Assembly (NCBI RefSeq): GCF_028369105.1
Contig: NZ_JAQNDO010000001.1
Span: 11,254,501 to 11,318,500, forward strand
DNA: 64,000 bases
Source: Polyangium mundeleinium
Lineage (GTDB): Bacteria; Myxococcota_A; Polyangia; Polyangiales; Polyangiaceae
Reading direction: 5' to 3'
The notes beneath the pieces were generated by a model. The model was not told the origin of the DNA, searched no databases, and saw nothing but the letters and a program-made list of their open reading frames with translations. The position numbers and the translations under genes were made by a program. Below are positions 55,963-59,677 of this stretch, one piece after another. Position 1 is the stretch's first letter; the number at the start of each line of letters is the position of its first letter.

Positions 55963-58464
55963 ATGAAGCCCGCTCCGACCTGCGAGGCCGGCGCATCGGC
56001 ACTGCCGAACGCCAAAGGCGATGCACCCTCGTTCGAGGAGATGGATCCCATCGCACCCACGCTCCCCGACGGAGGCGCACGCTACTGCATCGTCGAGCGC
56101 CTCGGCACCGGCGGCACGGGCGTCGTCTACGCCGCCGAAGACCGCGCCGCGAGCCGCCTCGTCGCGCTGAAGACGCGCAAAGAGGACAGCGACGATCCGG
56201 ACGGGAGCCAAGGCCTCTTCCTCCACGAGGCGCGCGTCGCTGCGCAGCTCGAGCACCCCAACATCGTCCCCGTCTACGACGTCGGCCGCCTGCCCGACGG
56301 CCGGCCCTTCTACACGATGCGCATCGTCAAGCAGCAGAACTTGCACGACGTGCTCATGCAGCCCGAGCTCCACCCGAAGTGGCCGCTCGCGCGCCTCGTC
56401 TCCGCATTCGTCCAGATCTCGCGCGCCCTCGCCTACGCGCATCGCCGCGGCGTCGTGCACCGCGACATCAAGCCGGAGAACATCCTGCTCGGCGACGAGG
56501 GCGAGGTGTACCTGAGCGACTGGGGCAACGCGCGCATGCTCACGGGCATCGAGCCCACCTCACCGATCTCGCTCCCCGACGACGATCCTTTCTTCATCCG
56601 CGGCGAAGGTGGTTATCCGAGCGGTTTGTCCGGGACCCCGGGTTACATCGCCCCCGAGCAGATCCGCGGCGAGCGCGCGAAGATCGATCACCGCGCCGAC
56701 ATCTTCGCGCTCGGCGTGGTGCTCTACGAAATGCTCACGGGCGAGCACCCCTTCGACGCACCCACCGTGCTCGGCGTGATCCTCGCGACGCAGACGCGGG
56801 ATCCCAGGCCGCCGCGCGCCGTCGCGCCGAGCTGCCCGCTCGTGCTCGAGGACCTCTGCCTCGCCATGCTCTCGAAGGATCCCGCGAAACGGCCGCACTG
56901 CGCCGCGCTCGTCGCGGGCGGAGCCGAGGCTTTCCTCGAAGGCGCGAAGGAGCGGGATCGTCGCCGCGCCGAGGCGCGATCGCTCTGCGAGCTCGCGCGT
57001 GAGCCGGCCCAGCGCGACAAGGCCCTGCGCCTCGAACGCGCGCAGCTCGACGCCGAGGCGCGGCGCCTGCGCGCCGACGTGAAGAGCTACGATCCGATCG
57101 ATCGCAAGCGCCCCGCGTGGGCCCTCGAAGATCGCGCCGCCGCCGTGGAGCGCGAGCAGGCGCGTGCCATGGCCGAAGCGATCGACCTCTACACGAAGGC
57201 GCTCGCGTACGATCCCGAGCTTGAAGAGGCGCGCTCGGGCCTCGCCGATCTCTACTGGGCCCGCGCCCTCGCCGCTGGCGCCGAGCGTCGCCACGCGAGC
57301 CGCATCTACTACGAAGCCCTCGTCTCCGAGTTCGACGTCGGCAGTTACGCCGCGCTCCTCCGCTCCGACGCGTGCCTCGCGATCGAAACGAACCCGCCCG
57401 GCGCGCGCGTCCTCGCCTATCGCTACGTCGAAAAGGATCGTGTCCTCGTCGCGAGCGAAGAGCGCTACCTCGGCCGCACGCCCATCACCGAGGTCCGCCT
57501 CTCGCCGGGCAGCTACCTGCTCGTGCTGCGCCGCCCCGGCTTTCGCGACGTTCGTTACCCCGTCTTGCTCCGCCGCGGCGAGCGCCACGAGGCCACGGTC
57601 AACCTCTACACGGAGGAGGAGATCGGCGATGGCTTCGTCTACATCCCCGGCGGCTCGTTCATCGCGGGCGGCGACGACGACGCGCCCGACGCGCTCGCAC
57701 GTACCGAGCCTGTCGTCGCCGATTTCGCGATCTCGCGCTTCCCCGTCACCTTCCGGCAGTACTGCGACTTCCTCGACCGCATCGAGGAGCGCTCCCACGC
57801 GCTCGCGCTCATGCGCGCCCCGCGCGACTTCCGCGGCACCGAAGGCTACGTCGTGCGCCGCGGCGAGCACGGTCAGTGGGAGCCCGTCTCCGGCCTCATC
57901 GAAGGCGATGCGCGCAAGCAGTTCCCCCACGAAGAGGGGCACCTCCTCGACGTGCCCGTCCTCCTCGTCGATTGGTTCGACGCCGCCGCGTACTGCGCGT
58001 TCCACACCGAACACGAGGACTTCGAGATGCGTTTGCCCACGGAGCTCGAATGGGAGAAGGCCGCGCGCGGCACCGACGGCCGCATCCATCCCTGGGGAGA
58101 TCCTTTTGATCCCACCTTCTGCCTCATGCGCGCCTCGCGCCCCTACCTCCCGCAGCCCGAGCCTGTCGGCACCTTCCCGCTCGACGAATCACCGTACGGC
58201 GTCCGCGACATGGCGGGCGGCGTGCGCGAGTGGGTTGGCGACGTGCACGGCGAGCGCACGTGGTCCGAGACGAGCACCGAGCCCGAGCCCGGCGCTGGCG
58301 CCTTGCGCGATGCCTCCGAGTGGCGCGTCATCCGCTCGGGCGGTTGGTCCACGACGCCCGAGTACACCCGCAGCGCTGCGCGCACGCGCTTCTTCGCCCT
58401 CACCCGCGCGACGCACCTCGGCTTCCGCGTCGCGCACGATCTCCCGCGCCGCCACCCGCGCTGA
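55963..58464 (+). CDS. Ser/Thr kinase fused to PEGA-like and FGE/SUMF1-type domains
   Basis: This 833-residue soluble protein has three parts. The kinase (about 40-320) has glycine loop GTGGTGVV, ATP Lys70 in VALKTRK and HRDIKPEN with catalytic Asp168. Its Mg motif is DWG (Asp186 in LSDWGNAR) instead of DFG; since the Asp is kept, it should be active. A helical TPR-like stretch (DLYTKALAYDPELEEARSGL) and a PEGA-like domain (about 463-550, AIETNPPGARVLAYRY, PGSYLLVLRRPGF) follow. The C-terminal domain (556-825) is formylglycine-generating-enzyme-like: FVYIPGGSFIAGGD, RLPTELEWEKAARGTDGR, GVREWVG and LGFRVAHD. No FGE-type Cys pair is visible, so that domain is more likely a binding or kinase-output module. 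No TM helix is seen. Confidence 0.92.
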   Translation: MKPAPTCEAGASALPNAKGDAPSFEEMDPIAPTLPDGGARYCIVERLGTGGTGVVYAAEDRAASRLVALKTRKEDSDDPDGSQGLFLHEARVAAQLEHPNIVPVYDVGRLPDGRPFYTMRIVKQQNLHDVLMQPELHPKWPLARLVSAFVQISRALAYAHRRGVVHRDIKPENILLGDEGEVYLSDWGNARMLTGIEPTSPISLPDDDPFFIRGEGGYPSGLSGTPGYIAPEQIRGERAKIDHRADIFALGVVLYEMLTGEHPFDAPTVLGVILATQTRDPRPPRAVAPSCPLVLEDLCLAMLSKDPAKRPHCAALVAGGAEAFLEGAKERDRRRAEARSLCELAREPAQRDKALRLERAQLDAEARRLRADVKSYDPIDRKRPAWALEDRAAAVEREQARAMAEAIDLYTKALAYDPELEEARSGLADLYWARALAAGAERRHASRIYYEALVSEFDVGSYAALLRSDACLAIETNPPGARVLAYRYVEKDRVLVASEERYLGRTPITEVRLSPGSYLLVLRRPGFRDVRYPVLLRRGERHEATVNLYTEEEIGDGFVYIPGGSFIAGGDDDAPDALARTEPVVADFAISRFPVTFRQYCDFLDRIEERSHALALMRAPRDFRGTEGYVVRRGEHGQWEPVSGLIEGDARKQFPHEEGHLLDVPVLLVDWFDAAAYCAFHTEHEDFEMRLPTELEWEKAARGTDGRIHPWGDPFDPTFCLMRASRPYLPQPEPVGTFPLDESPYGVRDMAGGVREWVGDVHGERTWSETSTEPEPGAGALRDASEWRVIRSGGWSTTPEYTRSAARTRFFALTRATHLGFRVAHDLPRRHPR

Positions 58465-58590
58465 GGTTCGTACTTCCGAACCCTAGAGCAGCGACATGCT
58501 CGCTGCTCTGCGAGATCGCGAAGCGAACTCGCCTCGGGGGGTGAATCGGCCGGGCTTCGCCTGGCCGAGAGGGGGACGCGAGGCGTCCCC
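58465..58590. other. run of five consecutive hairpins between convergent genes
   Basis: Five perfect or near-perfect stems stand end to end. First: GGTTCG/CGAACC (58465-58482). Second: AGAGCAGCG/CGCTGCTCT, 9 bp (58485-58509). Third: GCGAG-A-TCGC/GCGA-A-CTCGC, 9 bp with one A-A mismatch and loop GAA (58510-58532). Fourth: TCGGCC plus inner pairs to GGCCGA, about 10 bp (58546-58568). Fifth: GGGGACGC/GCGTCCCC, 8 bp with loop GAG (58572-58590). They fill almost the entire gap between the kinase-FGE stop and the convergent isomerase stop. A structured 3' element, a small RNA or a stacked bidirectional terminator are the options. Confidence 0.65.
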
Positions 58591-58597
58591 TTCGGGA

Positions 58598-59677
58598 CTA
58601 AGGCGCGCCCGCGTCGCCCGCGCCGCCGTCCGCCGCTTCTTGCCCGGGCGGCGTGTATCCGGGCAGCGCCCACGGCCCCGGATCCTGGCCTTCGAAGGGT
58701 TTCACGCCTTCGGGGAGCTTCACCTTCGCGAGCGCCGCGTCGTCGATCTCCACGGCGAACTTCTTCTTGAGCTCCGCTTCAAGCGCCTTCTCGCGCTCCT
58801 GCATCTTCTGCTGCAAGAGTTTCACGCGGATCGAGCGATCCGCTTCCTGGAGCGTTCGGCTGTGCGCCGCCGTGATGCCGTTCATTCGCACCACGTAAAA
58901 CCGACCGTCCGCCTCGACGATCTCGTCGAGCACCGACCCCACGCTGCCGATCTTGAACACCGCTGCGCGGATCGACTCGGGGATCTTCGGGTTCTTGCCG
59001 CGCGGATCGTCGGGCGCGCCGACCACGCCGAGATCCCCCGCGAGATCCACCGACGCGCTCGGATCCTTCGTCTTCGCCGCCGTCACCGAGTGCTTGTAGA
59101 AAAGCTCGCCCCACTCGGCCGCGGTTTTGATCTTCGTCGCGTCCTTCAACACGCGCTCTGCCGTCTTCTTGTCGGACAGCACGATCGCCGCGACGCGACG
59201 CCGCTCCGGCTCGCGGAATTCCTCCGCGTGCGCCTCGTAGTACGCGCGCACCTCGGTCGCCGGAATCTCGCCCGGCGCGGGCAGACCTTTCCGCGCATCG
59301 GCGAGGATCGCGTCGCGCAGGATCTGACGGATCGCCTCTTCCGTCTCGGGCTGCTTGTCGAGCCCGCGACGCCGCGCCTCGGCGGCGAGCAGCTCCACGT
59401 CGATGATCTCGTCGAGCAGCTCTTTTCGGCGCTCCTTCGTCTGGTAGCGGAGCCTGTCGAACTGATCCATCCGCTCCAGCGTCGCGGCGAAGTCGCCGAG
59501 CGTGATCACCCGATCGCCGACCTTCGCCAGCGTCCGCGCGGCTTGCTCTTGCGAGAGCCCTGCCGCGGGCGGCGCCGCGTCCGCTGCGGACGGCGCCACG
59601 GCCTTGTCGTTGCAGCCCGCGGAGAGCGCGACGATTGCCGCGACGAACAGGGACGATTGCGCGCGCCTCACCAGCAT
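58598..59677 (-). CDS. SurA/PpiC-type peptidyl-prolyl isomerase lipoprotein
   Basis: This 359-residue protein has lipobox ALSAGC (Cys22), then a SurA-N-like helical chaperone part (LAKVGDRVITLGDFAATLER, QTKERRKELLDEIIDVELLA). A parvulin/PpiC domain follows (about 165-280), with VAAIVLSDKKTAERVLKDA, GELFYKHSVTAAKTKDP and DLGVVGAPD. The likely role is folding or delivery of outer-membrane proteins in the periplasm. The C-terminus is a Pro/Gly-rich tail with AADGGAGDAGAP. It faces pyrH divergently. Confidence 0.88.
   Translation of the reverse strand: MLVRRAQSSLFVAAIVALSAGCNDKAVAPSAADAAPPAAGLSQEQAARTLAKVGDRVITLGDFAATLERMDQFDRLRYQTKERRKELLDEIIDVELLAAEARRRGLDKQPETEEAIRQILRDAILADARKGLPAPGEIPATEVRAYYEAHAEEFREPERRRVAAIVLSDKKTAERVLKDATKIKTAAEWGELFYKHSVTAAKTKDPSASVDLAGDLGVVGAPDDPRGKNPKIPESIRAAVFKIGSVGSVLDEIVEADGRFYVVRMNGITAAHSRTLQEADRSIRVKLLQQKMQEREKALEAELKKKFAVEIDDAALAKVKLPEGVKPFEGQDPGPWALPGYTPPGQEAADGGAGDAGAP

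Follow-up and report, generated by a model that had tools for sequence, protein, structure and literature searches.

Stems 2 to 5 of the five hairpins that fill a 133-base convergent gap in the Polyangium mundeleinium genome are, we think quite likely, a copy of a MITE-like non-autonomous repeat that an IS1182-type transposase moves in trans. We regard the repeat as a new MITE-like family found in Polyangium, ordinary in kind and probably driven by a transposase of the IS1182 type. This reading would account for a recurrent hairpin-rich feature of Polyangium genomes and tie it to a named transposase family. A literature search that reached a minority of subscription papers turned up no description of such repeats from Polyangium or from myxobacteria at large. 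Among the four options of the original prediction, namely a structured non-coding RNA, a stable 3' end, a multi-site protein target or a composite mobile palindrome, the last is favored by the dispersed copies, the filled and empty sites, the CTAG target and the IS-like ends, whereas the structured RNA has little in its favor beyond covariation and a weak G.T excess.

Hairpins of the convergent gap

The window, i.e. the whole 64,000-nt stretch of DNA analyzed here, belongs to a genome of 13.25 Mb in two contigs. The gap lies between the stop codon of a + strand gene, ending at 58464, and that of a - strand gene at 58598. The features annotated in and around it are as follows.

55963..58464, + strand: left neighbor, 833 aa, protein kinase, PEGA and FGE-sulfatase domains (Pfam)
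58465-58482, unstranded: stem 1, 6 bp, GGTTCG/CGAACC
58483..58486, unstranded: left CTAG, the target at the left boundary of the repeat (from the left ends of copies)
58486..58597, + strand: inserted repeat, short form without hairpin RH, 112 bp (from filled and empty orthologous gaps)
58485-58509, + strand: stem 2, hairpin LH, 10 bp
58510-58532, + strand: stem 3, hairpin H2, 9 pairs with one mismatch
58533..58545, + strand: unpaired linker CTCGGGGGGTGAA, columns mostly invariant or more than 90% conserved (copy alignment)
58546-58568, + strand: stem 4, hairpin H3, 10 pairs with one G.T
58569-58593, + strand: stem 5, hairpin H4, 11 pairs with one G.T
58598..58601, unstranded: right-hand CTAA, counterpart of the left CTAG (from the sequence and the gene end)
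58598..59677, - strand: right neighbor, 359 aa, PpiC-type peptidyl-prolyl isomerase domain (Rotamase_2, Pfam)

Matches to SurA_N in the right neighbor were below the curated Pfam cut-off. Five stem-loops had been predicted to span the gap and this is confirmed by the folding energies. The + strand of 58455-58600 folds at -86.8 kcal/mol compared to -63.3 +/- 4.4 for shuffled sequences (z -5.32) and the - strand at -81.0 kcal/mol compared to -57.5 +/- 3.9 (z -6.04). None of the 200 dinucleotide shuffles of this segment used as controls was found to fold as stably, on either strand. All five stems are present, although the fifth was found to have 11 pairs with one G.T and not the 8 bp first described.

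The right-hand gene is present in all six Polyangium genomes (the P. mundeleinium genome, G000, and G001 to G005) and the orthologous gaps were compared. Stem 1 is kept in all six gaps, including those of G001-G004 that contain no repeat; its MFE stem has five or more pairs in every gap and is weakest in G001 and G003. Stems 2 to 5, on the other hand, are found in full only in the P. mundeleinium gap; the gaps of G001-G004 are empty and that of G005 is partly filled, with LH and H2 followed by the right end. As stem 1 occurs in all the gaps and stems 2 to 5 do not, stem 1 is host sequence and stems 2 to 5 are an insertion. The idea of five hairpins forming a single string therefore holds for the last four of them, which make up the inserted repeat, and fails for the first. 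Stem 1 itself may form a 3' end hairpin for the two converging genes.

The flanks of the window copy are unequal, with CTAG on the left and CTAA on the right, where the CTA at 58598-58600 is the antisense of the TAG stop codon of the peptidyl-prolyl isomerase gene on the - strand. The empty alleles at this site in G001-G004 are CTAC (twice), CTAT and TTAC, compared to CTAG...CTAA in the filled one. The LH arm of the window copy has the AGC/GCT form and matches the IS end described below at 14 of 20 nt, which counts against our reading. This copy, which has no RH, is probably an immobile remnant.

Copies, forms and covariation of the repeat

The genome-wide search for the same string that had been suggested recovered it many times. 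At least 45 BLAST matches were found in the P. mundeleinium genome, several of them pieces of tandem arrays (40 of the 122 candidates were scored), and when 71 distinct copies were used to build a covariance model, it counted 51 copies in this genome and 73, 25, 53, 38 and 11 in the other five, with the highest count in G003 (73) and with 53 in G002 and 25 in G004. The repeat thus occurs in all six Polyangium genomes with 11-73 copies each, while BLAST found none in 33 genomes of other genera (19 from the same family and 14 from the same order). An exact 24-mer of H4 occurs in at least 120 stretches of named genomes, and all 120 of the matches listed belong to Polyangium, with P. fumosum and the strains sp. 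6x1, 15x6 and y55x31 among the hosts. Our copy set contains 169 copies, 41 of them from the P. mundeleinium genome and a few counted twice where records overlap at locus edges. Full-length copies are about 113-167 bp long and contain no transposase gene, so that the 51 copies of the P. mundeleinium genome are multiple, dispersed and short, as expected of a MITE. The G+C content of the repeat (70.5%) is close to that of the host window (69.7%).

The order of the elements in the repeat is CTAG, LH, H2, the unpaired linker, H3, H4 and GGGA. The family form of the LH outer arm is CTAGAGCGCCGAACGGTTCG, which corresponds to an IS1182-type terminal repeat. In the long form, GGGA is followed by about ten bases, an inner CTAG and the terminal hairpin RH flanked by CTAG; here LH in its AGCATCGAACGGTT form and RH (AACATCGATCGGTT) are alike as inverted repeats. 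According to rough pattern rules, LH is present in 121 of the 169 copies and RH in 53. RH is therefore absent from 116 copies, the window copy among them, and the fact that most copies have no right terminal repeat counts against the MITE reading. Among 100 counted copies without RH, GGGA is followed by CTAA in 20, by CTAG in 17 and by other tetramers in the rest, which are perhaps eroded ends. RH without the body also occurs, at the loci L213, L212 and L204.

The inner hairpins H2-H4 form a body with a putative role only, and some sites show tandem amplification. Tandem H3-H4 units occur in L053, L055, L130 and L186; a unit of about 63-65 bp is amplified to four units at L055:1477-1752, and three tandem units, the first one partial, are found at L053:1514-1695. 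Another left end, in which CTAGAACCGTT or a close form adjoins CTCGGGGGGTGAAT, was observed in L088, L093, L131, L158 and L166, and the common upstream sequence of these copies together with their odd left end suggests mosaic repeats. Two more MITE-like elements with long CTAG-bounded inverted repeats were observed in or beside copies (L215:1697-1796, the same site as L081; L205:9564 onward; and L199), where one of the two sits within a long-form copy between H4 and RH.

Compensatory base changes among relatives, whose absence was to speak against the original prediction, were seen in 71 distinct copies, and because the covariation is clear the prediction does not fall on this point. The 71 rows remained from 81 of the 169 copies, those with recognizable LH and H4 at 105-124 bases, after removal of duplicates, odd lengths and two named rows. 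Of the 2880 cells 97.7% are paired, compared to 93.6% after shuffling, and the pairing falls to 36-47% when the partners are slid by 1-3 columns. Ten of the 41 pairs have changed on both sides (6.1 in shuffled alignments), with 130 both-side-changed cells compared to 40.4 +/- 10.4, and 31 further pair types were found compared to 27.7, a number matched by 13 of 500 shuffles. These statistics should be read in the light of the relatedness among copies, which makes the rows dependent on one another, and the same signal arises from DNA palindromes. The changes in the LH stem are compensatory among the copies and five of the nine pairs of H2 show changes on both sides. The ten pairs of H3 are paired in 96.5% of cells, and the eleven pairs of H4 in 99.7%; H4 hardly varies and is the most conserved part, partly by construction since many rows were fetched with its exact 24-mer.

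Read on the + strand, and with pair 77/87 left out, the alignment contains 20 G.T cells and 7 A.C cells. The distinct states number 15 and 4 respectively, with p 0.019 under an independence that the rows do not have. This excess of G.T is weakly suggestive of a folded single strand of + sense. Both the compensatory changes and the G.T excess, which a folded strand allows, would also be expected if selection acted on the fold of an RNA encoded by the repeat, either a structured non-coding RNA or an element at an RNA 3' end. We consider this quite unlikely, as covariation is equally expected of palindromic DNA elements, the repeat is missing from this gap in four of the six genomes, and the copies favor neither orientation (of 144 classified copies, 86 are read into from the left gene and 98 from the right gene). 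A known RNA family was rejected as no Rfam family reached its threshold in 58300-58800 in a search with E up to 5; the one match (E 0.4; 13.5 bits against a gathering score of 38) lies outside the repeat. It is likewise unlikely, with some chance of being right, that selection maintains a strand-specific fold of the hairpin body, which would serve as a folded single strand during transposition or as an RNA 3' element. The IS1182-type system would then insert at CTAG stop codons instead of replacing stem-loops, and would spread almost free of cost. The compensatory changes, the tolerance of G.T over A.C and the nearly invariant unpaired linker are the bases of this reading, which we hold with little confidence.

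CTAG target, empty sites and gene ends

The left end of the repeat is CTAG in 59 of 90 usable copies, with GTAG (13) the next most common. The joined flanks of twelve insertions were searched in the genus. Ten of them were inspected, in two relatives each although more matched; of the other two, L006 lacked a contiguous match, and for L050 a single one was present, in G001. The empty alleles carry CTAG in both relatives at six of the ten sites (L004, L008, L029, L037, L042 and L044). At L044 the empty allele reads gcgggcg-CTAG-cggttg and the filled one gcgggcg-CTAG...CTAG-cggttg, and the duplication is equally clean at L037, a short form; CTAG...CTAG compared to a single CTAG, the target duplication expected of a MITE, was seen at L044, L037 and L004. 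Two sites (L026 and L034) have CTAC in both relatives when empty and CTAG on both sides when filled, which counts against our reading, and the empty alleles of the remaining two (L002 and L038) are ambiguous. The repeat targets CTAG, or else CTA with one further base, and the CTAC empty alleles together with the tetramers at the window site may point to a duplication of the three bases CTA.

According to parts of PMC5678879, IS1272, a studied member of the IS1182 family, makes no target duplication and replaces stem-loops, the latter being stated also in a part of PMC4923244. An IS1272-like replacement of a target stem-loop, in which the hairpins would be leftover palindromic targets, finds some support in the conserved stem directly to the left of the insertion at the window site. 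However, the left flank of CTAG is no more prone to form hairpins than the controls, as the 30 bases left of CTAG in 90 copies showed no hairpin excess (mean z 0.003 compared to -0.06 in controls, one-sided p 0.75), and clean CTAG duplications with no stem-loop lost were found at L044 and L037. This explanation is very unlikely. The IS1272 mode, stem-loop replacement without duplication, was not observed: in contrast to IS1272, the Polyangium repeat lies between CTAG copies, as does the IS itself at the one site with an empty counterpart, which has CTAG on both sides compared to CCAG when empty. A palindrome beside the target as a targeting signal was rejected, since no hairpin excess was found in these 90 of the 169 copies.

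Outside the repeats, CTAG is about 14-fold depleted, with 225 sites compared to 3108 expected from base composition in 1.10 Mb, an area made up of the window and the loci and slightly redundant. Of these sites 66 are stop codons, 131 are intergenic and 28 lie inside genes; the window alone has nine CTAG compared to 178 expected, none of them in genes and four at stops. An intact TAGAGC end is present in 71 of the 146 classifiable copies, and in 40 of these the left gene terminates at the left TAG, which exceeds the proportion of stop codons among CTAG sites in general (66 of 225). Genes were called with a home-made program that scores codons, with the window as its training sequence.

We propose that an IS1182-type transposase supplied in trans would recognize the terminal palindromes, which would be LH at the left end and, in the long form, RH (CTAGAACATCGA.CGGTT) at the right end. 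Staggered cleavage of CTAG would then lead to duplication of its bases, and the duplication would rebuild the TAG stop. As CTAG is rare and found mostly in stop codons or intergenic DNA, and TAG would be rebuilt, insertions should seldom be harmful and the repeat would come to sit in such gaps. The scarcity of CTAG, its overlap with stop codons and the restored stop would together give a simple reason for the location at gene ends.

The context could be classified for 146 of the 169 copies, the rest being in short loci or near edges. There are 57 copies in convergent gaps, 70 in codirectional and 17 in divergent ones, with one intragenic copy and one at an edge; in the same loci, 160 of 767 gene pairs are convergent when the repeat-bearing gaps are included. 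The convergent copies, and the convergent gap of the window copy, would suit an intrinsic or bidirectional terminator cluster of a convergent pair. Such a role is extremely unlikely, as a scan of 58400-58700 gave no terminator-like site, the gap has no repeat in four of six genomes and dozens of further gaps carry this sequence. A plain intrinsic terminator, i.e. a GC-rich stem with a T run, was rejected; nowhere in 58456-58610 do three T or three A stand in succession.

The proposed IS1182-type partner and comparison with known systems

Matches to DDE_Tnp_1 were found in all six Polyangium genomes (47 matches, 30 of them given loci). Inverted repeats bounded by YTAR were found in 13 of these 30 loci and were absent from 17, and three of the 13 candidates (L248, L253 and L254) have LH-like ends that start with AGCGCCGA or close variants. 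The transposases of L253 and L254 score 308.7 and 301.6 bits with the NCBIfam model NF033551 (IS1182; cut-off 270) and contain the Pfam domains DDE_Tnp_1, DDE_Tnp_1_6 and DUF772. With the IS5 models of NCBIfam the L254 transposase stays under the cut-offs (59.9 against 140, 55.5 against 275 and 27.3 against 140).

End identity was measured over CTAG plus 16 nt. The family LH arm matches the IS ends at 20 of 20 nt for L253_R (G001) and for L273 and L277 (G002), and at 19 of 20 for the IS fragments L279 and L287 of the P. mundeleinium genome, while the other ends match at 15-19. The full IS copy of this genome matches at 17 of 20 nt on its left end and 18 of 20 on its right end. The left end of the repeat is therefore common to an autonomous IS, as expected of a MITE, whereas RH reaches 17 of 20 at most. 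Its best IS end, L272 (G005), shares 17 of 20 nt with RH and 16 of 20 with LH, so the link of RH to the IS is loose.

The IS1182-type copy of the P. mundeleinium genome has an uninterrupted frame. At L254:477-2871 a second, partial copy of it comes next in inverted orientation. The two together are flanked by CTAG on both sides, with CCAG at the empty site in G003. Transposase matches were found in four of the six genomes, being full in G000, near-full twice in G001, partial in G005 and end fragments in G002. No relative of the IS1182 transposase was detected in G003 or G004, which have 73 and 25 copies of the repeat, so that in these two genomes, and in G002 with its fragments, the driver has been lost, is unassembled or is a different one. 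This is the weakest point of the proposed partnership, as the repeat is most numerous in G003. Among the pattern matches listed, no autonomous partner carries the 18-nt end of the repeat at IS spacing, and the only pair of such ends in the loci examined (L114) lies between two repeat copies. No match to the repeat body H2-H4 was seen in the IS loci, where blastn of the whole repeat returns the 20-nt end alone.

REP/BIME elements with RAYT transposases are extragenic and palindromic, with a modular organization and tandem clusters. The Polyangium repeat shares with them the extragenic palindromes, a tetranucleotide at the hairpin foot and modular or tandem arrays, and a Y1 transposase (RAYT or IS200/IS605) as the mover of a REP/BIME-like element could be supported by the presence of Y1_Tnp in G001, G003 and G005, with G003 having the most copies. 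No match to Y1_Tnp (PF01797) was found, however, in the P. mundeleinium genome, G002 or G004, two of the four Y1 loci are without any CTAG, and the ends of the repeat match a DDE-type IS of the IS1182 type instead. We regard such a mover as highly improbable, and a RAYT or Y1 driver was rejected as the three genomes just named gave no Y1 match.

With MITEs the repeat has in common that it is short, is present in many copies, carries no transposase gene, shows target duplication and has ends like those of an IS from the same genus. In archaeal MITEs only the borders, generally of less than 20 nt, resemble the partner IS, according to a part of PMC3852290. The Polyangium repeat differs from MITEs in its three-hairpin body with tandem amplification, in the right terminal hairpin, missing from most copies in our rough classification, and in its G+C content, since MITEs are typically AT-rich according to a part of PMC10969869. 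The likeness to the IS1182 family (NF033551) lies in the transposase, as the Polyangium IS with the ends of the repeat encodes one of this family, and such an IS1182 relative may use a sequence target instead of stem-loop replacement. The preference for CTAG is shared with IS5 of E. coli, which duplicates Py-T-A-Pu, mostly CTAG (15 of 24 sites listed in a part of PMC5493358); the Polyangium transposase differs in being below the cut-offs of the IS5 models.

Because other CTAG-bounded IS groups occur in the genus, CTAG alone cannot identify the driver, and it is the end sequence, that of the left end, which does so. At least three other such groups, their inverted repeats flanked by CTAG or YTAR, were observed, namely AAGTCATCTCATAAACC (about 0.9 kb; L252 and L258), CACTACTCTGCCATC (about 1.5 kb; L245, L256, L265 and L267) and CAGCCCGTGGATCTA (about 1.5 kb; L261, L262, L264 and L268).
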